DNA from: a virus
IMG/VR virus record: IMGVR_UViG_3300009128_000086
Coordinates: 1-31,469 of that record
Length of the DNA stretch: 31,469 nt
Strand: one strand, 5' to 3'
A program made the position numbers and the translations under genes. Below, one piece after another: positions 4,310 to 31,469 of this stretch; the first letter of the stretch is position 1, and each line of letters begins with the position of its first letter. The notes below the pieces were generated by a model, which saw only the letters and a list, made by a program, of their open reading frames with translations, made no database searches and had not been told where the DNA came from.

Positions 4310-5209
4310 TTATTCTGGTAATTCACTGTGTACCGTGCCGTCCAGTTCACGGCCTGCTTCATTGTGTCGATAGTATTTCAGTTCCGATGCCCGACCGGTT
4401 CGCCCATAGGCAACCCAAGTCACTGTCTTTTTCTTCCCGGCACCTGACTCCCAATCCAGCAGCTCGCCAGCGGAATCTGGTCTGGCTACTCGTCGCTTGG
4501 ATGGATCAGGTTTATAGCACCCCCACTGTTTGAAGAAAAAGGGAATGCTTTTGCTGATACACTGGTCACGGATTTTCCTCGCCCAATCGGGGTGCATCGG
4601 TCGGGCGCCCGGTCCTGATTCCCCGCCGACGATAACATGGTCAAGTGATCCGTAGCCGGACAAATCAATCTCATCCAGCAGCGGCTCCAGTGAAACGCCT
4701 CGCTTGCCGACTGAGGGTATTTGCAGCAGAATACCGGCGCGGTGATCGAGCCAATACTGGTTCTCCGCCGATACATAGAGGTGTATGTTGGAAAGGTCTG
4801 GCTCCATGCCTATCTGCTGGCGTTCCGCCAACCATGTTTCGATAAATTCCAGCGCCCGCTCCGGTCGCTTCGTCAATATCTGGAAAATATGATCCTTCCG
4901 CTGGTACCGGCAGGCCTCTATCATCCAGAAAATGTGTTCCAGTATGTGGTGGGGTGTCTCTTCGTGAAACAGGTCACCCATGGAACAGACGAATATCCGC
5001 CGGGGTTTCCGCCAGCGCAGCGGTGCCGCCTGTTTCAACTTGTCGTGGTGAACCGTCAGACGAAACGGATCCTCTGCATGATATCCAAATCTCCCGGCGA
5101 GCCGGGTAGACATCCTCCGCGCCCAACAATTCTCACAACCGGGGGAGGCTGGCGAGCAGCCTGTCACCGGGTTCCAAGTCTGGTCAGTCCATTCAATCTT
5201 TGAGCCCAA
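4310..5209 (-). CDS. Phage Gp37/Gp68 family protein (DUF5131), three-Cys motif
   Basis: A 299-residue member of the phage Gp37/Gp68 (DUF5131) family. The hallmark is at the N-terminus: KIEWTDQTWNPVTGC, then SPGCENCWA, giving Cys18, Cys25 and Cys28, a cluster likened to radical-SAM iron-sulfur sites. Further family blocks are FVCSMGDLFHE, FQILTKRPER, LEPLLDEIDL and VIVGGESGPGARPM. TTG 5209 is chosen because it gives the usual family start and follows AGAGGAGG; GTG 5227 is possible. It overlaps the zinc-ribbon gene upstream by 17 bases. Family members often sit beside a partner called TcmP; I see no such gene here. The reaction is unknown. Confidence 0.85.
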   Translation of the reverse strand: MGSKIEWTDQTWNPVTGCSPASPGCENCWARRMSTRLAGRFGYHAEDPFRLTVHHDKLKQAAPLRWRKPRRIFVCSMGDLFHEETPHHILEHIFWMIEACRYQRKDHIFQILTKRPERALEFIETWLAERQQIGMEPDLSNIHLYVSAENQYWLDHRAGILLQIPSVGKRGVSLEPLLDEIDLSGYGSLDHVIVGGESGPGARPMHPDWARKIRDQCISKSIPFFFKQWGCYKPDPSKRRVARPDSAGELLDWESGAGKKKTVTWVAYGRTGRASELKYYRHNEAGRELDGTVHSELPE

Positions 5210-5447
5210 GTTTCCTCCTCTCTTCACGGCTACGCCGCTGTGCAGCCAGTTTGTCTTTCACCGCCTGAACAGCCATTTCCAGCGGCGGGTGGCCTTTCCC
5301 GGTTTCCGAGCGGTAACGGTCGCAGAGCTTCTCGAATTCGTGATCCACCTTTTGGTTACAGGTATGGCACATGATCTCATGCACCTGTGGCCGGCGGTAG
5401 CTCACCGTTTCGATTGGCTTCCCGCAGATCGAGCATTGTTTCGGCAT
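5193..5447 (-). CDS. Small zinc-finger protein
   Basis: An 84-residue protein with an N-terminal four-cysteine knuckle (CSIC at 5-8, CHTC at 27-30), then a charged helical C-terminus rich in K and R. The fold suggests a small nucleic-acid-binding or regulatory protein; no family name is supported. ATG 5447 follows an AGGAGG-type site (AAAAAGGAGGGACG). Its 5' end overlaps the C-terminus of the small gene 5402-5578, and its 3' end overlaps the DUF5131 gene. Confidence 0.65.
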   Translation of the reverse strand: MPKQCSICGKPIETVSYRRPQVHEIMCHTCNQKVDHEFEKLCDRYRSETGKGHPPLEMAVQAVKDKLAAQRRSREERRKLGLKD

Positions 5448-5578
5448 CGTCCCTCCTTTTTGATGTCAGGGCAGAGTCGTAGAAATTCCTCGTATGACCC
5501 GAAAGCCAGTATTGATATGGGTGGGTCTATTGTCCGCCCGTGACTTTGGTATCTGTTCCTCACTCTTTTCTTGGACAT
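5402..5578 (-). CDS. Small RuvC-linked protein, copy B (unknown family)
   Basis: A 58-residue protein clearly related to the one at 6543-6746. Both read RVR..Y..HG...DPP..I.AFG...F...PDIK.E..C. I recognise no named family. ATG 5578 follows GAGGAG with a seven-base gap and overlaps the end of the RuvC-like remnant by 19 bases, just as copy A overlaps the end of the intact RuvC. The pair RuvC plus small protein was therefore duplicated or acquired twice, and the small partner kept an intact frame even where its RuvC was destroyed. Confidence 0.65.
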   Translation of the reverse strand: MSKKRVRNRYQSHGRTIDPPISILAFGSYEEFLRLCPDIKKEGRCRNNARSAGSQSKR

Positions 5579-5902
5579 CTGATAGCTCCTCTCAACTGCT
5601 TTTGCGCGATCCAATGGTGTGCCATGGCGAAAGCGTCACGACAATGCTCACTGGTTCGCTTGCCTTCGAGAAACCGGCGGTAGAGCAACTTCACCCGTCG
5701 GCTGGTTTCCTTCTTGGTGGCCGTCGAACGTCGTAACGTCATCCCAAATGGGGAACGGTTCGAGGCATCCGTCAGCTTGTCTTGCGAGCAAGACCTTTCG
5801 TGCGTAGGAATCAATTTCAACAGCGCAGACGGTGCGCCATCCAAGGAGCTTCCCTCCCAGGATGCCGCCTCCTGCCCCTGCAAATAGTGCCAGCTCATTC
5901 AT
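5560..5902 (-). pseudogene. Chimeric remnant: C5-cytosine methyltransferase N-terminus joined to RuvC C-terminus
   Basis: From ATG 5902 the frame encodes the start of a DNA cytosine-C5 methyltransferase: LFAGAGGG (AdoMet motif I, residues 6-13), AVEID (motif II) and DDVTTFDG (54-61). The homology then stops; the frame runs on as unrelated residues to 5648, before the catalytic PC motif. In another frame, from about 5720 to 5560, the sequence encodes a RuvC C-terminus (RRVKLLYRRFLEG, SEHCRDAFAMAHHW) matching the intact RuvC at 6743. The junction lies near 5715-5725. The start overlaps the MT-A70 stop as ATGA. Neither half can be an active enzyme as seen. A chimeric assembly is the main alternative. 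Confidence 0.75.
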
Positions 5903-6546
5903 GCCCCCTTCTCCGTGCTATGGATTGCACAACGATCAGATTCAGCGGACGGAGTACCGCCGCTGATCTGTGCGTTGGCCTCTACCTCATTGCCCCACAC
6001 CGTCCAGCCTTCACGCGGGCGGCGGGCGAAAAGCTCAAGCCGTGGGCCCGGCGACACGGTTTCAACCATGTCCTGAAACGCTTCCGGTTTTGCGCTGTGC
6101 CTGCCGCGTTTCCACTCGAACACCGTCCCGATATGCCGTCGCTTTGCCGCCAGTGTCCCGCGCCTTGCGAAGATGCAAAACTCGGCAGAACACACCCACG
6201 TCCCGCAAACACCCTTCGGCGGCTTGCTCCACACCAGCACCGCGCCCTGCTTAAATCCCCACGCATCCAACACCGTGTAGGCGTCGCGCAAGAAGCGTTG
6301 CGTTGTCCACAGGTACAGATGGCATCCCTTTGCGGCAACATCCCGCACTGGCATAGCTGCAATGTCCGAAACCGTCATCGTCGGATAGTCAAGGTCAACC
6401 GTCTTCATCGGCGGCGTGTTGGTTGCTCCGGCGTACAGCGTGCCCTTGCGCCGTTCCATCGGCCACGGCGGGTCAGCGACAATGCACCGGAAGCCCCGGC
6501 CAACAAGAGCATCGAGGGTACAATCATTCCGCGCTTCGCTTATCAT
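5899..6546 (-). CDS. MT-A70 family adenine-N6 DNA methyltransferase
   Basis: A 215-residue AdoMet-dependent methyltransferase with the catalytic DPPW at residues 25-28 (FRCIVADPPWPM). Other MT-A70 features are HLYLWTTQRFLRDAYTVLDAWGF and the C-terminal region ending RPREGWTVWGNE, where the AdoMet site is completed. It probably methylates adenine in phage DNA as protection against restriction; the target is unknown. ATG 6546 follows GAGGG with a seven-base gap and overlaps the small gene upstream by four bases. It lies between the two copies of the RuvC/small-protein module, next to the broken C5 methyltransferase. Confidence 0.88.
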   Translation of the reverse strand: MISEARNDCTLDALVGRGFRCIVADPPWPMERRKGTLYAGATNTPPMKTVDLDYPTMTVSDIAAMPVRDVAAKGCHLYLWTTQRFLRDAYTVLDAWGFKQGAVLVWSKPPKGVCGTWVCSAEFCIFARRGTLAAKRRHIGTVFEWKRGRHSAKPEAFQDMVETVSPGPRLELFARRPREGWTVWGNEVEANAQISGGTPSAESDRCAIHSTEKGA

Positions 6547-6746
6547 GATTGACCCTCATGCTTGGCGTTGGCAGTAATAGCCTCTTCTCGTACACTCTCG
6601 CATGGCGCCTCCTGTTTAATGTCCGGGTACAGTTGTTTGATGAACAGCTCTGGCGGACCGAAAGCGATGATGGTCAGGGGTGGGTCCGTCACCTTTCCAT
6701 GTTGCAGATACTCCCGCCTGACGCGGGTGTTGCGTTTCGTCTTCAA
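6543..6746 (-). CDS. Small RuvC-linked protein, copy A (unknown family)
   Basis: A 67-residue protein, homologous along its length to copy B at 5402-5578 and with a longer tail. The shared core is RVR..Y..HG...DPPL.I.AFG..E.F....PDIK.E..C. The likely start is TTG 6746: it follows AGAGGAGG with six bases between and overlaps the RuvC stop in a TTGA arrangement. No ATG lies near the family start. Being coupled twice to RuvC suggests a functional partnership, perhaps an adaptor or junction-binding subunit; this is inference only. Confidence 0.65.
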   Translation of the reverse strand: MKTKRNTRVRREYLQHGKVTDPPLTIIAFGPPELFIKQLYPDIKQEAPCESVREEAITANAKHEGQS

Positions 6747-7195
6747 AGGATTCCTCCTCTTGCTTTGAGTTCCGACAACCAGTAATGAGCCATGCCGATT
6801 GCGTCCCGGCAGTGTTCGCTGGTCCGCTGGCCGTCCAGAAACCGCTTGTACAGCAGCTCGACCTTGCGCTGGGTGTCCTGTTTGGATTCCTTCTTTTTCC
6901 ATTGGACAAGAACCGCCGGCGGGGTGACGCCGATCAGGACCCCGATTGCCATTGCTTCCTTCAGCAAGGGTCCAACATTCTTTCCCTCCCTGGTCCACTC
7001 CGACAGCTCCTCGATGACCGTTTCCTCTACAGCCATATCATGCGCCAGCTTGCCAAAGTGCTGCTTGATCTGTTCCAGCCTGTCCACTAAAGACCCCGGC
7101 CGGGCGTTGAATGTCCCGAAGTGTCGCAGGTCGCCGGCATCGAACAGGGCCCAACCGCAGTGATTGATTGATGGGTCGATGAACAGCCTACGCAT
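6743..7195 (-). CDS. RuvC-like Holliday junction resolvase
   Basis: A 150-residue RNase H-fold nuclease of the RuvC type, which resolves branched DNA before packaging. The first catalytic Asp is D7 in LFIDPSINHCGWALF. A glutamate lies in AVEETVIEEL (about 55-64) and the last acidic site is in SEHCRDAIGMAHYW (about 126-139). Length fits small phage RuvC proteins. The start overlaps the upstream HTH gene by eight bases and no strong ribosome binding site is visible, so translation is probably coupled. The ERF annealase upstream suggests one recombination module. Confidence 0.85.
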   Translation of the reverse strand: MRRLFIDPSINHCGWALFDAGDLRHFGTFNARPGSLVDRLEQIKQHFGKLAHDMAVEETVIEELSEWTREGKNVGPLLKEAMAIGVLIGVTPPAVLVQWKKKESKQDTQRKVELLYKRFLDGQRTSEHCRDAIGMAHYWLSELKARGGIL

Positions 7196-7466
7196 CCGGC
7201 GCCCGCTTCCGTTGGTTCTCCCGGATTATGCCGTATGTTCGCGCCAGCTTTGGCGGGATGTAGTAGATGGAATGGAACCCCGCCTTTCCGCGGAGTGATT
7301 GGTCGGCACGATCATGGATAACATAGCCAGCGGATCGGAGGTCAAATATCACCCTGCCGAGTCGGGTCAGCCTCCACAATTCCACAGCTTTCAAATTGGT
7401 CAGGGTGTGTCCTTGTATTAGATAATTCAAAACCCTGACAGTGTACGGAAGTGATTGGTTAGACAT
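7188..7466 (-). CDS. Helix-turn-helix domain protein
   Basis: A 92-residue protein whose core, VLNYLIQGHTLTNLKAVELWRLTRLGRVIFDLRSAGYVI (residues ~12-50 across), has the pattern of the phage helix-turn-helix domain of the PF14090 kind: a helix, a TxxxA turn, an RLxxxIxDLR recognition helix, then the start of a wing. It probably binds DNA and regulates transcription or replication. ATG 7466 follows GGAG. It overlaps genes on both sides by eight bases and belongs to the tightly coupled early block. Confidence 0.75.
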   Translation of the reverse strand: MSNQSLPYTVRVLNYLIQGHTLTNLKAVELWRLTRLGRVIFDLRSAGYVIHDRADQSLRGKAGFHSIYYIPPKLARTYGIIRENQRKRAPDA

Positions 7467-8088: not shown

Positions 8089-8649
8089 TCAGTATCCTTC
8101 CTGTGGTGGTTCTGCCGGGAACGGATATTTCACGCCCGGCGCTTTCTTAGACTCACCACCCCCCCCTTCCGGAGGGGGGGGTGTGGTGTCTCGTACAGTA
8201 TTATTTCTTATCGTCAGGCGGTCTGGAGACCGTCCTGAGATGATCTTAAGACGGTCTGGATAGGGTATTGGAATATGCTCATAGTGGGTTAGCACCGCTT
8301 TGACTGCATCGGGTCGACTGCATTCCTGCAGCGCGTTTTTCATCCCGGTTAGAATATCCTTGGAATGGTAGTTTCTAATCTGGTCACGGATGAAATTCTT
8401 GACCCAAAACCACTCACCGAATTGCAGCACCTTACCCTCTGTGATCATATACCGCATCAGGTGTTCAGTCGCCTCGCGATCCTGAGCGATGTACTCGCCA
8501 ATCTTCTTGAGTGACATCTTCAGTAGCCCGACGGTATTAACTTTGGGACCAGTGAACAAGAACAGATAGAGCAATTTCACCCGCCCGTCCTGCTCTTCCA
8601 CCCAAGGATCGTCCCAAAACCCTGTGGATTGTACCGTGCGAAATGTCAC
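8089..8649 (-). CDS. Replication-organizer-like winged-helix protein
   Basis: A 186-residue protein. The N-terminal 95 residues (FWDDPWVEEQDGRVKLLYLF, then TVGLLKMSLKKIGEYIAQ) match the plan of phage replisome-organizer/DnaD-like winged-helix domains that bind the origin and recruit helicase. No helicase or polymerase gene is seen on this genome, so it would rely on the host's. The C-terminus is low complexity: two PDRL repeats, then TPPPPEGGGGES. GTG 8649 follows AGGAG. The DNA for the C-terminus contains a strong C8/G8 hairpin and inverted repeats, features often found where a phage origin lies inside the initiator gene. Confidence 0.55.
   Translation of the reverse strand: MTFRTVQSTGFWDDPWVEEQDGRVKLLYLFLFTGPKVNTVGLLKMSLKKIGEYIAQDREATEHLMRYMITEGKVLQFGEWFWVKNFIRDQIRNYHSKDILTGMKNALQECSRPDAVKAVLTHYEHIPIPYPDRLKIISGRSPDRLTIRNNTVRDTTPPPPEGGGGESKKAPGVKYPFPAEPPQEGY
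8154..8188. other. Strong C8/G8 hairpin inside the replication gene
   Basis: Eight C, the loop TTCCGGA, then eight G form a near-perfect inverted repeat, with CACCA/TGGTG arms outside it broken by two extra bases. It encodes PPPPEGGGG in the minus frame. It may be an origin structure or a replication-slippage site; long C and G runs are also error-prone in sequencing. Confidence 0.5.
8219..8260. repeat. Short iteron-like repeats (CGGTCTGGA) with inverted arms
   Basis: CGGTCTGGA occurs directly repeated at 8219-8227 and 8252-8260. The 8-base arms AGACCGTC (8227-8234) and GACGGTCT (8250-8257) form a perfect inverted repeat. Part of this reflects a repeated PDRL peptide, so the DNA signal may be secondary. 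Together with the adjacent hairpin it is a candidate replication origin. Confidence 0.35.
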
Positions 8650-8661
8650 GAGCGCTCCTGT

Positions 8662-9675
8662 TCATTCTTTGTTCTCACGAATCCACTGGAATACCGCGTT
8701 CTCCGCGTTGCTGATTTCATTCTGAGGAATATCCTCGATGCGAGATACTTTCAGCTTTTCCAGTACGAATGTCAGCAGGTCGGTTGCCAGCTCGGTTTGC
8801 ATGTCAGGGGTTGCATCTGGGAACGAATCTGTCAGATGGTTGGTATAGAACGTCCGGAACCGCTCCTGCTGGTCATCCGTTAACCCCGGCACTTTTTGCT
8901 TCTCAGGCTCAGGCTTGGTTTTCTTGGTCTGCTTCGTCACGAATTTCGGCGTGTCTATCGCCTTGAGTAGTCGGTTAACTTCGTCCGGGGAAAGGTCGTT
9001 CAGGTCGCGGAGGTCGAATTTGTCGCAGAGCTGGTGCATCGCGCCGATCATGGCATCTTTGGCGGCAGGGGTGCCCTCCTTGTATCCGGCTGCATATACC
9101 GCGTCACGAATGGCAGCCTTGACAGTATCCCGGCGGGTGGCGGGGGTTTCCTCTGGCTTGTTGGTGTCAAGTGCGGTGGTTTCCGGTTCGATGGAATCAC
9201 CTCCGATCGCAAAGGTCTGTTTGGCCCAATACTTGTATGCGCCTGACAGTGCTTTGTAAAGCGCTTTGTCGCCGTAGTCAGAGCCGTGACCATAGGCGGT
9301 GGTGGTTAACTGTTCGCCGGAATCAACATCGATCAGGGTGTATTTCATCGTCACCTCGACGAAACGCTCCTTGCCATCTTTGGTGGTGGCGACGACGCCG
9401 GTCTCTGGATGGACATTCAGCCCAAGCTCCGTCAGCAGGAGTTTCAGGTGATCCATTATGTCGTCAATGGGTGTGAAATGGTACTTGTGATGGTCATTCC
9501 AGCCGGTCTTGCCGACGTTAATCCGAGCGGTTATCTCGTTGATTTTCGCCTGCAATCCCTTCGGTTTGTTGCCGTCAGTATACCGGGGCGGCAGGTTCTC
9601 CAGCATCGTCTCCGCTGGCGGCTGCTGCTGATCGGCTGGCGGTTTCTTCGCGGCGTACTCCTTAGATCGTGCCAT
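8662..9675 (-). CDS. erf: ERF-family single-strand annealing recombinase
   Basis: A 337-residue protein whose N-terminal domain (about 41-155) fits the ERF family: LQAKINEITARI, YHFTPIDDIMDHLKLLLTELG, then TTTAYGHGSDYGDKALYKAL and GAYKYWAKQTF. ERF proteins form rings that anneal complementary single strands, supporting recombination-dependent replication and circularisation. The C-terminal half is a linker rich in T, P and K with a terminal helical domain. It overlaps the upstream coiled-coil gene by 14 bases and is followed by the replication-like gene. RuvC lies further downstream in the same block. Confidence 0.88.
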   Translation of the reverse strand: MARSKEYAAKKPPADQQQPPAETMLENLPPRYTDGNKPKGLQAKINEITARINVGKTGWNDHHKYHFTPIDDIMDHLKLLLTELGLNVHPETGVVATTKDGKERFVEVTMKYTLIDVDSGEQLTTTAYGHGSDYGDKALYKALSGAYKYWAKQTFAIGGDSIEPETTALDTNKPEETPATRRDTVKAAIRDAVYAAGYKEGTPAAKDAMIGAMHQLCDKFDLRDLNDLSPDEVNRLLKAIDTPKFVTKQTKKTKPEPEKQKVPGLTDDQQERFRTFYTNHLTDSFPDATPDMQTELATDLLTFVLEKLKVSRIEDIPQNEISNAENAVFQWIRENKE

Positions 9676-12287: not shown

Positions 12288-12578
12288 CTAACCGGTCGGA
12301 AACTCCCGATCCAGCAGCAGCAGAAAAGCCACGAAGAAATCTCGATTGCAGGAGGAAAGTTGCACGTAGGCGGTTTCCTCTTCGGGGAAGGTGTGGATGG
12401 CGAGATGTGATTCAGCTATCAGCCAGAGCGCACTCCACCCTTGCGGTTTGAAATGGTGTTCCATCAGCCGCAGGATACCGAACCCCGCCTCCTCCAGTAT
12501 CGCGGTGAAGGAATCGCGCAGGATTCTCGGATCAATCTCCCGCAGCCAGATGGAATGTTCCCAGATAGCAGCTCTCAT
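12288..12578 (-). CDS. S-adenosylmethionine decarboxylase-like proenzyme (short, SpeH/SpeD type)
   Basis: A 96-residue protein with the core of prokaryotic class 1B AdoMet decarboxylases: LIAESHLAIHTFPEEETA, then YVQLSSCN. By family analogy the chain would self-cleave before Ser57 to make the pyruvoyl group, with His62 and Cys77 as processing/catalytic residues; their spacing matches Ser63, His68 and Cys83 of the Thermotoga enzyme. Known enzymes make decarboxylated AdoMet for spermidine. It is shorter than the usual ~120 residues, mostly at the C-terminus. Its start overlaps the DNA methyltransferase stop as ATGA. Phage homologues can use other substrates, so activity is not certain. Confidence 0.85.
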   Translation of the reverse strand: MRAAIWEHSIWLREIDPRILRDSFTAILEEAGFGILRLMEHHFKPQGWSALWLIAESHLAIHTFPEEETAYVQLSSCNRDFFVAFLLLLDREFPTG

Positions 12579-19035: not shown

Positions 19036-19596
19036 TTAGCTCAAATCCCAAGAGTGGAGTTCCTTTACTTCTGTTGCCTCGAATGCTGTGCCGTTGTAGT
19101 CTGTCCGGTTGATAAAATACAGCGACACATTCCCCACCAGCGCCGATCCTTCGAGGATGTAGTAGAGCCGCCCCTCGTTGTCGGAGTTCACCGTCGGGTG
19201 GCTCGTCAAGAGCGGCAAGTGAAGTCCGCTGTCCTCGTCACCGGGAGCGAATCTGTCATCCGCTTCCGACTCGGTATAGTAGCGGTCATCATGATCGCCG
19301 CCGCTGGAGTGGATGGTGAACTTTGTATCCACCTCTGACTTCGAGTAGATGGAGTTGGCGTGCGGACTTGCGTCGTCCTCATGTTCGAGGAGGTCCTGAT
19401 CCGCGAAGGGAACCTCCGTCAAGCCGTCGACGGCAACTCCGCTCACCTTCACCGTATAGACACCGCTCGACAGCCCCGTGGTGTAGTAGGTGCCGTCGCC
19501 GTTGTCGATGATCGACACCGATTGCAGAACCCCGCCCTTGTAGATCGTAACGCTGAGGCCAGCGTCCGATAGTTTGAAGCTGAAACGAGCCGCCAT
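19036..19596 (-). CDS. Fibre-like tail protein, copy 2
   Basis: A 186-residue paralogue of the next gene upstream (19605-20156). Shared blocks are YY...L.SGVY.VKV near residue 40-50, then GDHDDRYYTESEADDRF and a CPGDED/APGDED-like motif. DHDDRYYTE-type segments are common in trimeric phage tail fibres. The N-terminal ~60 residues look like a small beta domain. ATG 19596 follows GGAGGAATC. It likely forms part of the tail tip or fibre; receptor binding is inference. Confidence 0.65.
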   Translation of the reverse strand: MAARFSFKLSDAGLSVTIYKGGVLQSVSIIDNGDGTYYTTGLSSGVYTVKVSGVAVDGLTEVPFADQDLLEHEDDASPHANSIYSKSEVDTKFTIHSSGGDHDDRYYTESEADDRFAPGDEDSGLHLPLLTSHPTVNSDNEGRLYYILEGSALVGNVSLYFINRTDYNGTAFEATEVKELHSWDLS

Positions 19597-19604
19597 GATT
19601 CCTC

Positions 19605-20156
19605 CTATCCGCCGATGTAGGTTTCCAACTCAATTATGGTGCTAATGGAAAGAGTGTCCCCATCGAAGCCTCGACGGTACCGGAACGCCAGTCTGCAAAG
19701 GAAGGCGTGGTTGTGGTACCAAAGCGCGCCTTCCTCTGTTTGGTTCGCAGTCACAGGCGGCAGGGCGGCGGCATCTTCATCGCCCGGGCATAGCCTGTTC
19801 CCCATCTCTGTTTCCGTGTAGTAGCGGTCGTCGTGGTCATCCCCAGTCGTTGCATGATGGTGCTCATTCAGCAGCGAACTGAAAGCCGTTTCCGTATAGG
19901 CGAAGTCTGGGTGCGGGTCTGCCGCCGTTTCATGATCGACGAAGTCCTCGCGCATATGGGGAAGGTCGACAAGACCATTCACGAAGTTCGACCCCACCTT
20001 CACGCTGTAAACGCCGCTCGGCAAGTCCTCGACATAGTAGACTCCAGCCCCATCGTCCGTGACGCTTGCTCCGGCGTTCTTCCCGTTCTGCCAGATCGTC
20101 GGATTCTGGCCTGCGCCAGCGCCGAGGATAAATGTGAAGCGTGACTCGTAAGCCAT
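19605..20156 (-). CDS. Fibre-like tail protein, copy 1
   Basis: A 183-residue protein paralogous to 19036-19596: VYYVEDLPSGVYSVKVGSNF, then TGDDHDDRYYTETEMGNRL and CPGDED. A beta-rich N-terminal domain is followed by the fibre-like DDRYYTE segment and a divergent C-terminus, the part expected to contact receptor. ATG 20156 overlaps the upstream stop by one base (TGATG) and a GGGGTGG site precedes it. Tandem divergent copies may give two tip specificities. Confidence 0.65.
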   Translation of the reverse strand: MAYESRFTFILGAGAGQNPTIWQNGKNAGASVTDDGAGVYYVEDLPSGVYSVKVGSNFVNGLVDLPHMREDFVDHETAADPHPDFAYTETAFSSLLNEHHHATTGDDHDDRYYTETEMGNRLCPGDEDAAALPPVTANQTEEGALWYHNHAFLCRLAFRYRRGFDGDTLSISTIIELETYIGG

Positions 20157-20605
20157 CAGTCCACCCCGTACATTGTAAGCTGCCAGCCGCTCCGGTCGAC
20201 ACCAGGCCAAGGCAGCGTGTCGAACTTGTGCCTTCCCTCCACAGTCAACTCTAATATCCGCCGGCTGCTGTCGAGCGGTCGGGCTGACTTCAGCGCCACA
20301 TTCTGGATCAACAGATACATTACCAGCTCGTTGAAATCATCGTAAGGCCAGAACAGCACATTGGTTGAAGGGTCCGTGAAGAAATCCAGGATATATCCGG
20401 CTTCATCTCTATCCGAAAGAATACAGGTGTAGCTGGCCTCGAAACGGAAGCCGCGCCGGGTTCGTGTCATATCACCCGATTGAACCGCGTGATGTCCGTC
20501 ACCGATCGGATTGAAACGCTCCCGCCGGCCGTTCTTCACTACCTGCAGGTTGATGTAACCACTAGGCACCGAGTACAGTCTTGGATTTCCAGTTGGCTTG
20601 CTCAT
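20156..20605 (-). CDS. Tail-tip protein, 149 aa
   Basis: A soluble beta-rich protein between the tail hub and fibre genes, so a tail-tip or baseplate component by position. Its middle (RGFRFEASYTCILSDRDEAG, then FFTDPSTNVLFWPYDD) follows the same plan as the next gene upstream (REFRFEGEYLFDDLGDGD, then WWEGGTAFTFKP), suggesting two diverged copies of one fold. ATG 20605 overlaps the upstream stop by four bases. The family name is unknown to me. Confidence 0.6.
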   Translation of the reverse strand: MSKPTGNPRLYSVPSGYINLQVVKNGRRERFNPIGDGHHAVQSGDMTRTRRGFRFEASYTCILSDRDEAGYILDFFTDPSTNVLFWPYDDFNELVMYLLIQNVALKSARPLDSSRRILELTVEGRHKFDTLPWPGVDRSGWQLTMYGVD

Positions 20606-22469: not shown

Positions 22470-24790
22470 AATGCCGCCCTCATCTTATCGGCCGCTATTC
22501 CGTCGTAGACTTCCACCAGAGCGCCATTGCTGGCGATCGTGCGCCGTGCTTTCAGGATGGTGGCGATTGTACGCAGTTCCGTCAGGACAGCCGGATCACC
22601 GCCGGCGCCACCTCCTAGATACTTCTGGAACGCCGCATCCAGAACCTTCATCGGTGCGATCACCTCCGGCTTGTCGCCAACTACCGCCAACTGCGGGGTG
22701 TTGACGAAACCGCCTTCACCAAAGAACTTGATCGACTTCGCAGCGCTCATGAATCCCTTCAGCACGAGCAGCACGCCGGCGATCGCGGCCGGGATGGCCA
22801 GCAGAGCCCACGGACCGAGCGAAGCAAACCCCTTGCCGATCGCCACGATCATGCCCCACATATCGGCCATGATCTCCTTCGATTTCAGCGCCAGCCGAGT
22901 GGTGGTACCCTTCGCCGTCAGTAAGGTTTTGGTTTTCTCGACACCGGCATAGATAGCCAACTCTTGCATGGCGGCTTTCAGGGTCCCTGCAATAAGGCTA
23001 TCGCGGACACCGCCCCAAATGTCCTTCAGGGAGTCGCCGTGAACCGCCATTCCGATGACCATGTCTTCCAGCGTGTTCCGGTAGAAGTCGCGGAGCTGCG
23101 CGGTCCGGGCTTCCGCTCCGTCCAGATAGTCACTCCACATCTGCCACATATTGTCAGCGGTGATCTGCTGCTCGGTCTGAAGCAGCTGCGTGTACTCAAA
23201 GTAGGAATCCAGGGAATCGTCAAGCTCTTCCTGTATCACATCCGCTGGCGGAATCGGCATTGCGGGAGCGCCGTCCTCAACCTCCCGGCCGCCTTTCTTT
23301 TCAGCGGGGGCGTTCTCCGGTACTACCATTAACGACATCATGTCCTGGAGCTTCTGCCAACGCTCCCTGATGGCATCTACAGCCGCCACTTGCCGGTCAG
23401 CTTCCGTCTCCGCCCTCTCCGCAATCGTGGTCATCTGGATTCCGTAGTCATCCAGCATCTTGTTAACTTCAGCCGTGGTCAGCGTCACCCGGCCCATCCC
23501 ATCTTCATAGGCGTCGACATGGAACGCCAGCGCACCCATTGAAGACAGGTATTCGAGAGCAGCTCGTTTCTGACTGTCCGCGACGGAAGCGCCCATGAAC
23601 TCCGCAGCGCCGGCAACTTTCAGCGCGGCCGCTTCTTCAGCGAAAGCGCGAGCGTCCAGCGCGTCCATTCGCAGGTCTTCTGCGGCCGTCATGCCAGCCA
23701 TCATCTCTTTGTACTTTTCCCCCGCCAGCTCCTGCATGGCGTGGAAACGAATGCGCTGATCGAATTGGAAGTTGGCCGCCTTCAGCGCCTCCGCCAGCTC
23801 CTGAGTGGAAGATTTCTCCAGGTCGATGTTCGTCAGGTAGTCCGAGTATTTGTCCTGAAGCTCCTTCACCAGCCCATTCCGATGCTCCTGCTGAACATTG
23901 GTGTCCATGATGCCGCGCATCAGCCGGTTGAATTCTGCCTTTTCTTCACGCAGCTTTTCCGAAACCGGAACCTCAATCCAACTTATCAGCGTCTCAGATA
24001 GTGCTTTCACAAAGCGAGCGGCCGCCTTAAACACTGGGCCGAAGCGGTCCGCAATAACTTCGATCAGATCACCGACAGCGTTCTCGGCTTGCTGGATCGC
24101 TCCCCACCAGTTATCAATGGCTTCGGAGCTGCCGCCAAACTGTGACTCCAGCTCTTCAAGAATGATCGTCTGAGCGCCGGCGATGTCGTTGACTTCAACC
24201 ATCGCCCTGATCTGCGCTTCCTGCTGTTCGGTGAAAGTGATTCCCGTCCGGCGCAGGTTGGTCAACCCTTCGATCGGATCATTCAGCGCTTTGCCTACCT
24301 GAAGGGATGTTTCCTTCAGCCCCTGGTCCATCGCATAAGCAGTATCCAGGACGACCTGGGTGGTGCGGGGGAGGGTGTCGCCGGAGATTTTCTTGAAGGT
24401 GAGGAGAAGATTTTCGGCAACCTGGATTTCCTCGTTGCCGTAAACAGTGGACTGTTGAAGCGCGTCCGCCAGGCCGCGCATTTCCTGGGAGGTGGTTCCG
24501 GCCGCGTTGCCGGTGGACTTGAGGACCCGTTCGAGCTGCTCGTTGACCTTGACCTGAGCGCTGCCGTATCGGACCAGGACCCGGATTGGAGCAGCCAGTA
24601 TCGACGCGGCTTGCTTGACCCCGCTGATAGCCAGGCCAAACTTCGACATGGCAGCCTGAGCGCCACCAAAGAACTTCTTGAAGGCGCTGCCGGTGGATTG
24701 CGCTTCTGCGCGGACCGCCTTCAGATTGGCTTTAATGTCCCTGACATCGAGGAGAATCTCTGTCAGGATTTTCCCGTCACGACCCGCCAT
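22466..24790 (-). CDS. Tail tape measure protein
   Basis: At 774 residues this is the longest gene, as expected for the ruler of tail length, here a fairly short siphovirus tail. The N-terminal half is helical and carries tape-measure features (ILLDVRDIKANLKAVRAEAQ, QVKVNEQLERVLKSTGNAAG, and the block around TTQVVLDTAYAMDQGLKETS). A hydrophobic region near 665-705 (GPWALLAIPAAIAGVLLVLK) would span a membrane during DNA ejection. Residues 496-507 (AEKKGGREVEDG) are encoded by a 38-bp sequence also present in the tail tube gene. It overlaps the GT frameshift product by 14 bases. Confidence 0.92.
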   Translation of the reverse strand: MAGRDGKILTEILLDVRDIKANLKAVRAEAQSTGSAFKKFFGGAQAAMSKFGLAISGVKQAASILAAPIRVLVRYGSAQVKVNEQLERVLKSTGNAAGTTSQEMRGLADALQQSTVYGNEEIQVAENLLLTFKKISGDTLPRTTQVVLDTAYAMDQGLKETSLQVGKALNDPIEGLTNLRRTGITFTEQQEAQIRAMVEVNDIAGAQTIILEELESQFGGSSEAIDNWWGAIQQAENAVGDLIEVIADRFGPVFKAAARFVKALSETLISWIEVPVSEKLREEKAEFNRLMRGIMDTNVQQEHRNGLVKELQDKYSDYLTNIDLEKSSTQELAEALKAANFQFDQRIRFHAMQELAGEKYKEMMAGMTAAEDLRMDALDARAFAEEAAALKVAGAAEFMGASVADSQKRAALEYLSSMGALAFHVDAYEDGMGRVTLTTAEVNKMLDDYGIQMTTIAERAETEADRQVAAVDAIRERWQKLQDMMSLMVVPENAPAEKKGGREVEDGAPAMPIPPADVIQEELDDSLDSYFEYTQLLQTEQQITADNMWQMWSDYLDGAEARTAQLRDFYRNTLEDMVIGMAVHGDSLKDIWGGVRDSLIAGTLKAAMQELAIYAGVEKTKTLLTAKGTTTRLALKSKEIMADMWGMIVAIGKGFASLGPWALLAIPAAIAGVLLVLKGFMSAAKSIKFFGEGGFVNTPQLAVVGDKPEVIAPMKVLDAAFQKYLGGGAGGDPAVLTELRTIATILKARRTIASNGALVEVYDGIAADKMRAAL
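23269..23306 (-). repeat. 38-bp in-frame repeat, copy in tape measure gene
   Basis: These 38 bases are identical to 25732-25769 and encode the same 12 residues, AEKKGGREVEDG (residues 496-507 of the tape measure), in the same frame. Flanking DNA and the two host proteins are unrelated. It lies in a flexible P/E/A-rich linker. Confidence 0.9.
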
Positions 24791-25237
24791 CTATCAGCCT
24801 CCTTGTCCTGAGCCAGTCCGCCGCTTCGCTTAGGGTGACGCTGTCCAACACCTGCTTTGATTTGGTGATGTCGCCGTCGCACAGTGCGTAGACCAGCTTC
24901 TGTATCAGGACCCTGGCTTGCTGGGGCTGGTCGATCGAATTCCAGAAGTCAGCCCCTTGGCGAGTCGAGCCATCTGCGCGACCCGCTCGGAATTCGCTGC
25001 GAAAAAATTCAGCAGTTCCTCCATCAGCTCCAAAACCGGCAGGGTCCGGTATTCCTCGTCAGACAGCGATTGATCCAGGATGATCTCGAAAAACCGCTTG
25101 TCGCGGATAGCTGCCATCAACAGCTTCCGGTTGTCGTTTATGGGGAGTTGCTCTGCTTCGATCCAATCGACCAGATCGAGAACAGCCTGTAATACGAGCG
25201 GCCGGATTGCATACCGGCGCTCTGTTGCGTCAGACAT
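24777..25237 (-). CDS. Tail assembly chaperone GT, made by -1 frameshift
   Basis: Reading starts at ATG 25237. At the heptamer T TTT TTC (25007-25001) a -1 slip after residue 79 moves ribosomes into a frame that stays open for 74 more codons, to TGA 24779-24777, inside the start of the tape-measure gene. The extension looks like real protein (GADFWNSIDQPQQARVLIQK, then ITKSKQVLDSVTLSEAADWL). The full product would have 153 residues. This matches the lambda G/GT arrangement, where GT links the tape measure to tail tube subunits during assembly. The frameshift is predicted, not shown. Confidence 0.8.
24905..25237 (-). CDS. Tail assembly chaperone G
   Basis: The unshifted product has 110 residues, is helical and acidic (LQAVLDLVDWIEAEQLPIND, LPVLELMEELLNFFAANSER), and sits between the tail tube and tape-measure genes, where lambda gpG and its relatives lie. 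ATG 25237 follows AGGAGGAATC. The last 31 codons after the slip site (from AANSERV) may be only the default ending of the frame. gpG-type proteins coat the tape measure and are absent from the finished tail. Confidence 0.8.
   Translation of the reverse strand: MSDATERRYAIRPLVLQAVLDLVDWIEAEQLPINDNRKLLMAAIRDKRFFEIILDQSLSDEEYRTLPVLELMEELLNFFAANSERVAQMARLAKGLTSGIRSTSPSKPGS
25001..25007 (-). other. Slippery heptamer T_TTT_TTC
   Basis: On the minus strand the last T of AAT, then TTT and TTC form a canonical X_XXY_YYZ slippery site in the chaperone frame. The -1 frame after it is open to 24777. An alternative slip at AAG GGG (minus strand, about 24956-24951) would also reach that frame but fits the rule less well. 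Confidence 0.75.
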
Positions 25238-25255
25238 GATTCCTCCTGACGGGGA

Positions 25256-25453
25256 TCACTCTCCCGCCTCATGTTTATCGGTTGGCTTTGCGGTGGTCGA
25301 TCGCTTCCGAGCCGGCTTCTCACTGGCTGCCGGCTTGTCCGCCGGCGGGGTTTCCTCCGTGAAGCCGAGTTTCTTCAGCGCCGCCACCTTTGAATTGCGA
25401 TACCATCGAGGCGCCATCCCGCTCGGCGGCCGCAAAAGTGTCCGTCCTTTCAT
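25256..25453 (-). CDS. Small basic protein between tail tube and chaperone
   Basis: A 65-residue basic protein with a short structured start (MAPRWYRNSKVAALKKLGFT) and a disordered K/P/A/T-rich tail. I know no family. ATG 25453 follows TAGGAGGCG, so it is clearly a gene, and its place in the tail cluster suggests a minor tail or assembly role. Confidence 0.6.
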   Translation of the reverse strand: MKGRTLLRPPSGMAPRWYRNSKVAALKKLGFTEETPPADKPAASEKPARKRSTTAKPTDKHEAGE

Positions 25454-25462
25454 GGTCGCCTC

Positions 25463-25882
25463 CTACGCGATTTCAAACATATCGTCCAGGTTGGAACCGA
25501 CACCGTAACTGACCCAGAAGATCACCTTGGTGGACAGGCCGTCGATACCTACCTCGACATCGTACTCGAACACTGCGGCATCGGTGCCGTCAATGGTAAG
25601 CGTCTTGGTCAGGTTGGTGAAATCCACTGTGACCTTGTTGGCGTCCTTTACATCCGCCAGATCGGTTGGATCCAGCTCGGAGAAAGTGATCTCCAGTTGC
25701 AGGGTTCCGCCGGCGTCCCACTTCAGCTCGCCGCCGTCCTCAACCTCCCGGCCGCCTTTCTTTTCAGCGCCGGACAGCTTGAAAACATCATCCTTGACCG
25801 CAGTCAGGGTGAGCTTTTCTACTGCGTCCGCCAGAAAGGTTACAGTAGCCGGACCATACATGATTTTCGTTTTGTCAAGCAT
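25463..25882 (-). CDS. Major tail tube protein
   Basis: A 139-residue beta-rich protein (TLQLEITFSELDPTDLADVK, TVDFTNLTKTLTIDGTDAAV) just before the chaperone and tape-measure genes, the standard place for the siphovirus tube subunit. Its length suits the simple tube fold. Residues 39-50 are the AEKKGGREVEDG peptide shared with the tape measure; this piece looks like an insertion in a loop between the first strands. ATG 25882 overlaps the upstream stop and follows AAGGAGCG. Confidence 0.75.
   Translation of the reverse strand: MLDKTKIMYGPATVTFLADAVEKLTLTAVKDDVFKLSGAEKKGGREVEDGGELKWDAGGTLQLEITFSELDPTDLADVKDANKVTVDFTNLTKTLTIDGTDAAVFEYDVEVGIDGLSTKVIFWVSYGVGSNLDDMFEIA
25732..25769 (-). repeat. 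38-bp in-frame repeat, copy in tail tube gene
   Basis: Identical to 23269-23306 over all 38 bases and read in the same frame as AEKKGGREVEDG, here residues 39-50 of the tail tube protein. The sequence is not palindromic overall. I saw no third copy. Confidence 0.9.
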
Positions 25883-26298: not shown

Positions 26299-26810
26299 CA
26301 GATCACCTTTTTGATCTCTCGACGGATCACCTGAACAACCTCGTTTCCGTGGCGGTCCTCCGCTATTCTGAAGAATGGGAACGCGTCAGTTCCCCGTTGC
26401 CCGATCGCGTATTGAATGGACCTCGCTACTCTCGTGATTTTCTTTTCTCCTTTCACCTTCAGTTTCCGTCGCACCCAGACTTCCAATGGCGCCAGGGGTG
26501 GGAAGTGCGGCCGGGTTCCCTCATGAACAAATACTGCGTAGAACACACCTGGCTTCACCTGAACAGCCGGGACTCCCGCCCGGCTACCCTGCTCGACATG
26601 AATGCGCTTCCTCAGCTCCCCGCTGGACCCTACGGCTCCGCGAAACCGTCCGCGTGGCTCGGTGCGGATGATGTCCATAACGCGGTTCCGATACTTGTGA
26701 CCAGCCTTCCAGACCGCCCGGCGTGCGCCGTCGACAATGACGACAGCTTTCTGAGCCAGCGCCTTTTGGAATTCCTGATCGTCAAACCTTATGACGAGGC
26801 CGGCGCCCAC
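26298..26810 (-). CDS. HK97 gp10-like head-tail/tail completion protein
   Basis: A 170-residue protein matching the HK97 gp10 pattern: an N-terminal helix with FDDQEFQKALAQKAVVIVDG, then YAVFVHEGTRPHFPPLAPLE (91-110) and VWVRRKLKVKG. The family takes part in closing and joining the head-tail interface. GTG 26810 follows GGAGG with a six-base gap. It overlaps the upstream connector-like gene by 22 bases. Confidence 0.8.
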   Translation of the reverse strand: MGAGLVIRFDDQEFQKALAQKAVVIVDGARRAVWKAGHKYRNRVMDIIRTEPRGRFRGAVGSSGELRKRIHVEQGSRAGVPAVQVKPGVFYAVFVHEGTRPHFPPLAPLEVWVRRKLKVKGEKKITRVARSIQYAIGQRGTDAFPFFRIAEDRHGNEVVQVIRREIKKVI

Positions 26811-31153: not shown

Positions 31154-31469
31154 GCCACGAGACAGCAAGCCGCGCGGAACCCGTCAGCAGCGGGCGGATA
31201 CGGCTTTCGAGGCATATTGGAAACTGGGTGAGGATCGTTCACTTGATCGGCTGGCACGCGAACCAAAAATGCCATCACTGGGAACCCTTCGCAACTACTC
31301 GAAGGATTTTCACTGGCAGGATCGCCTACTCGAACGGCAGGAGAAAATCGCGGAGCAGGTCGACCGCGAAACCGCTCTGCTGGAGGCTCGGTTCATCACC
31401 AACCAGAAGAAATTCCTAATGAATCGGCTGGCGCGATACCATCGCGACAATATCAAGCAGCCGCTCGAA
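31104..31469 (+). CDS. terS: Terminase small subunit (N-terminal part, continues at 1)
   Basis: This is the 5' part of the 158-residue TerS gene; the rest is at 1-230 after closing the circle (31350 joins 1). ATG 31104 lies 50 bases inside the portal gene, in another frame. The first ~30 residues are basic and disordered (KSSKARSSAKKISKPR), followed by the HTH-like DRSLDRLAREPKMPSLGTL. The last 119 bases repeat the window's first 119. Confidence 0.8.
   Translation, partial: MVSKSSKARSSAKKISKPRDSKPRGTRQQRADTAFEAYWKLGEDRSLDRLAREPKMPSLGTLRNYSKDFHWQDRLLERQEKIAEQVDRETALLEARFITNQKKFLMNRLARYHRDNIKQPLE
31351..31469. repeat. Contig-closing direct repeat, right copy
   Basis: Exact copy of 1-119. An overlap of this size with a continuous gene across it is what a de Bruijn assembler leaves when a circular genome is closed at a k-mer of that length. 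Confidence 0.95.

Follow-up and report, generated by a model that had tools for sequence, protein, structure and literature searches.

The tail module of this virus raises the question of how one and the same sequence of 38 bp came to lie, in frame, in two unrelated genes, namely those of the tape-measure protein and of the presumed tail-tube protein. We addressed this question in the window, that is, in the whole stretch of 31,469 nucleotides that was analysed, which represents a complete circular virus contig of 31,350 bp with an additional end overlap of 119 bp.

Results

The first-pass annotation had reported an identical 38-bp sequence in frame in both genes, and we were able to confirm this over the whole window. 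The two copies agree at 38 of 38 positions and lie in direct orientation with a spacing of 2,463 bp, which is divisible by three. On the minus strand they share one reading frame and encode the same peptide (Table 1). From the composition, about 2e-14 exact 38-mer pairs are expected by chance; the repeat is real and lies far beyond this expectation. If the peptide is taken as given, the agreement of all codons (12/12) would occur by chance with a probability of 8.6e-6 under the codon usage of this genome. This excludes convergence at the codon level and shows that the DNA itself was copied, as the annotation had argued. No third or decayed copy was found in the window, where the runner-up 38-bp match has 23/38 identities and the runner-up peptide window scores 26, compared to 62 for the repeat (BLOSUM62). 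Similarity stops sharply at both ends of the repeat, and a comparison of the flanks of the two copies over 200 bp on each side revealed no similarity.

Table 1. Position of the two repeat copies and of the features discussed in the text
Feature	Position	Strand	Remarks
Copy 1 of the 38-bp exact repeat	23269..23306	(-)	Tape-measure residues 496-507, AEKKGGREVEDG, within Pro/Ala-rich linker
Copy 2 of the 38-bp exact repeat	25732..25769	(-)	Presumed tail-tube residues 39-50, AEKKGGREVEDG
Tail tape-measure protein gene, 774 aa	22466..24790	(-)	phrog_27166 4.5e-30; Pfam TMP_2 3e-9
Tail assembly chaperone	24777..25237	(-)	110-aa ORF 24905-25237 plus open -1 extension to 24777
Presumed tail-tube (major tail) protein gene, 139 aa	25463..25882	(-)	Gene order only
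Neck1 / tail completion protein	26301..26810	(-)	phrog_5 5.3e-15; anchors lambda-like tail gene order
Erf-like single-strand annealing protein	8662..9675	(-)	phrog_155 1.4e-28
Exact end overlap, 119 bp	1-119 and 31351-31469		Circular contig; second contig spans junction

The tail genes follow a lambda-like order, with the neck protein (phrog_5), a possible terminator, the tube, a 65-aa protein, the chaperone and the tape measure. The 139-aa protein, for which no PHROG or Pfam family was found above chance, is presumed to be the tail tube from its place between the tail terminator/neck genes and the chaperone. Translation in the 0 and -1 frames showed that the -1 extension of the chaperone overlaps the start of the tape-measure gene. 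A -1 frameshift may therefore take place in the chaperone gene, with AAGGGGC at 24958-24952 as a possible slippery site. The same order of tube, G/GT with a -1 extension and tape measure is known from gpV, gpG/gpGT and gpH of lambda, whereas the lambda slippery site is of the GGGAAAG type and the candidate found here is not. In lambda gpV, an extended loop (residues 45-58) is located between beta strands 2 and 3 (PMC10721106), and the copy in the tube gene (residues 39-50) is close to this position. The structure model of the presumed tube protein, with a pLDDT of 35, is too poor to prove a loop at the copy. Two adjacent paralogous genes, which probably encode tail or fibre proteins, are located after the tail module (19039-20336, minus strand; 36% identity over 192 aa).

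The repeat can be divided into 36 bp and 2 bp (CG) of ambiguous junction, the latter not being significant. Removal of 36 bp from the tape-measure gene keeps the frame and leaves a seamless Pro/Ala-rich linker (PENAPAPAMPIPPADV); the tape measure then reads VVPENAPAPAMPIPPADV. The tube gene stays in frame as well when 36 bp are removed and then reads KLSGGELKW. When the 36-mer is inserted at either site in all six orientations and frames, the gene remains open in five of them, so that the shared frame is a coincidence of about one in five and gives weak evidence for function.

The annotation had proposed to search for the 38-mer in phage and host genomes. This search led to a second contig, IMGVR_UViG_3300013120_000425, and, besides this contig and the window, to no other contig in IMG/VR; the near copies in phage and plasmid records were partial matches that did not exceed chance (E of 0.4 or worse). 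The 20-bp core of the 38-mer is likewise found in no other IMG/VR contig, and a degenerate KKGGREVEDG pattern was detected neither in another IMG/VR contig nor in a GTDB species genome. This absence of the repeat elsewhere in these collections indicates that it is not a dispersed element. The IMG/VR record is a stand-alone virus contig and gives no link to a host. The second contig has a length of 19,267 bp, over the whole of which it is 100% identical to the window, and it contains both 38-bp copies as well as the circular junction.

Using 134 related phage loci with a total of about 1.5 Mb, we found one other dispersed exact pair of at least 30 bp. The count excludes tandem arrays and repeats within a gene, as well as L018, a case of low complexity. 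This pair has a length of 30 bp and is located in L070 (7976-8005 and 14419-14448), with one copy in the tape-measure gene and the other elsewhere, within or next to a small gene. Dispersed short exact copies in such phages are rare, but not unique. The low-complexity case is a single contig with scattered stretches of an 8-bp-unit repeat of the CAAGAACC type (4611-4690, 5753-5815, 8450-8472 and 9387-9431).

A relative with an empty site was not found in IMG/VR, GTDB or the phage records, and the presumed tube protein has no relative at all in these collections. For the tape measure, relatives from 80 loci align over roughly the N-terminal third only, while the C-terminal part finds only itself in the collections searched. 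A forced full-length alignment was gap-ridden at the repeat site and was left out of the analysis. A further scan seeded with the capsid protein, comprising 52 new loci, yielded one homologue for the tape measure and none for the tube. Neither flank of the repeat thus has an alignable relative in these collections.

Apart from the repeat, the genome contains another region with probable traces of rearrangement. This region comprises 5405-5902 and 6546-7225 on the minus strand and includes an N-terminal fragment of a cytosine methyltransferase with a weak match to Pfam DNA_methylase (E 0.003). A frame overlapping this fragment repeats the product of 6746-7195 over its last 46 residues with 59% identity. 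Moreover, the small gene after each copy of the region is also duplicated (43%), and the DNA identity of the duplication amounts to 75% over 73 bp. The region probably represents a partial duplication of greater age that carries the scar of a recombination. A further gene on the minus strand (12288-12578), adjoining those of an N6/N4 DNA methyltransferase and a ParB-like protein, encodes an S-adenosylmethionine decarboxylase-like protein (Pfam AdoMet_dc 1.7e-15; NCBIfam below the cut-off).

Discussion

Overall, our data point to a single templated in-frame insertion of 36 bp by illegitimate recombination or template switching as the origin of the repeat, and we assign to this reading a probability of about 0.78. 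During phage DNA replication or break repair, a strand of one tail gene would have served as a brief template at a distance of 2.4 kb, from which 36 bp would have been copied into the recipient gene, with 2 further bp matching at the junction. As 36 is divisible by three, the reading frame of the recipient would survive. The hydrophilic insert of 12 residues may have been tolerated because it landed in a flexible stretch, and the copies may still be identical because the event was fairly recent. The copy is exact, has sharp ends, keeps the frame and is present in two contigs; the mechanism, the direction and the neutrality of the insertion we infer.

Tolerated copying is supported by the identity of 38/38 positions including the codons, by the abrupt ends, by the lack of decayed copies and by the linker that is restored on removal. 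In addition, we count in its favour that no other copies exist in IMG/VR, nor of the peptide in GTDB, that five of six insertion ways are open, and that a comparable pair occurs in L070. The same applies to the Erf-like annealase and to the second probable rearrangement scar of the genome. The annealase could possibly have helped in such an illegitimate event at short homology. Low-frequency recombination between sequences of 5-13 bp is cited for RecET in PMC2327257. The first-pass annotation had considered a gene-conversion tract made by the ERF protein, and the annealase is indeed present. Conversion between homologous tracts, however, would not be expected to leave a stretch of 38 bp with abrupt ends and without flanking similarity.

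With regard to the direction, it is more likely that the tail-tube gene was the donor and the tape-measure linker the recipient (about 60:40, a judgement), since the linker is uniformly Pro/Ala except where the charged insert interrupts it. Against this, the copy in the tube gene could equally be the insert. By the rule of three, the lack of mismatches in 38 bp limits the divergence only to less than about 8% per site, which makes "recent" a weak statement. A further point against a random event is that it would not be expected to hit, of all genes, two whose proteins work together in tail assembly. Recombination between the two direct copies would remove 2,463 bp from the tail module, so that such repeats should be short-lived unless they are useful.

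Short copies from a nearby donor are known from the templated insertions of MMBIR (PMC8421209) and from the illegitimate recombination in phage mosaicism (PMC2327257), and the repeat shares with them the sharp ends and the lack of element-specific ends; the 2 bp that match at its junction are too few to be significant. In contrast to a usual templated insertion, an empty site was not observed here, and the exact in-frame length and the choice of two partner tail genes look more designed.

Alternatively, the same 12 residues could be bound in both proteins by one partner, for example the G/GT chaperone or a protease, or could bind each other, and selection would then keep the copied peptide. 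The binding would then act in tail assembly or DNA ejection. The identical strand and frame fit to this idea, as do the joint action of tube protein and tape measure in tail assembly and the G/GT-like chaperone encoded between both genes. To our knowledge, a shared chaperone tag has not been described in the lambda tail system. Within lambda gpGT, binding is divided between a G part for the tape measure and a T part for the major tail protein (PMC5009743; PMC4493119). Thus, different chaperone domains serve the two proteins, and no common tag would be expected. Furthermore, selection on the peptide leaves the identical codons unexplained, and the shared frame is one of five open ways. The degenerate peptide pattern occurs in no other virus of IMG/VR and in no GTDB genome, although these include no close relative. 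A binding tag for the GT chaperone, as proposed in the first-pass annotation, therefore fits poorly with the separate domains in lambda and with a peptide found in no other phage, and we regard a shared functional peptide as unlikely.

A signal at the level of DNA or RNA, for instance a site bound by a protein or an RNA structure that is needed twice, would agree with the complete nucleotide identity. The RNA in the context of the tube gene folds somewhat better than shuffled sequences (z = -2.3). However, neither the 38-mer alone (z = -1.3) nor the context of the tape-measure gene (z = +0.4) does better than the shuffles, and the scans of the repeat region for RNA structure, Rfam families and promoters gave nothing consistent, with no Rfam match and no promoter-like site. 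The 38-mer is also not palindromic, and a DNA signal would not need the shared peptide frame. Taken together, such a signal appears very unlikely.

The presence of two in-frame copies with sharp ends in unrelated genes recalls small mobile elements that enter reading frames. Rickettsia palindromic elements (RPE) also form peptide-coding in-frame inserts in unrelated genes, but they have a length of about 150 bp, are palindromic and occur in tens of copies and several families (PMC10969869). The repeat described here has 38 bp and two copies in one virus, and it is not palindromic, in agreement with the annotation (in the symmetric register, 14/38 positions match its reverse complement). Short, non-autonomous repeats at more than one place are also formed by MITEs and other small insertion elements. 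In contrast to these, the 38-mer lacks terminal inverted repeats (3 bp at most, CGC) and a constant target duplication. The short direct repeats beside the copies differ, with CGCT (4 bp) in the tape-measure gene and CGGCG (5 bp) in the tube gene; they imply different unit ends and delimit no common unit. Given also the absence of the repeat elsewhere in IMG/VR and of the peptide pattern from GTDB, a very small RPE- or MITE-type element is highly improbable, and with it the mobile peptide-coding element that the annotation had brought up.

An assembly or amplification chimera, in which one of the two copies would be an artefact, is just as improbable: the window is a metagenomic contig and both contigs could derive from the same or sister samples, but these contigs of unequal lengths, one spanning the circular junction, carry both copies without mismatch, the reading frame is kept in both genes, and the end overlap of 119 bp hints at k-mers of about this length in the assembly, three times the repeat length, with which each copy should be resolved with its own flanks.

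The repeat is thus best read as a one-off copying accident that is tolerated in two flexible protein stretches. It shows cleanly how a phage can provide an unrelated essential protein with a ready-made peptide in a single step and, if neutral, adds a minor but well-documented case to the known plasticity of phage genomes. If it is functional, it would be a rare case in which cooperating virion proteins gained the same docking motif by DNA copying, and matching docking sites for one assembly or ejection factor would then constitute an undescribed route of acquisition.
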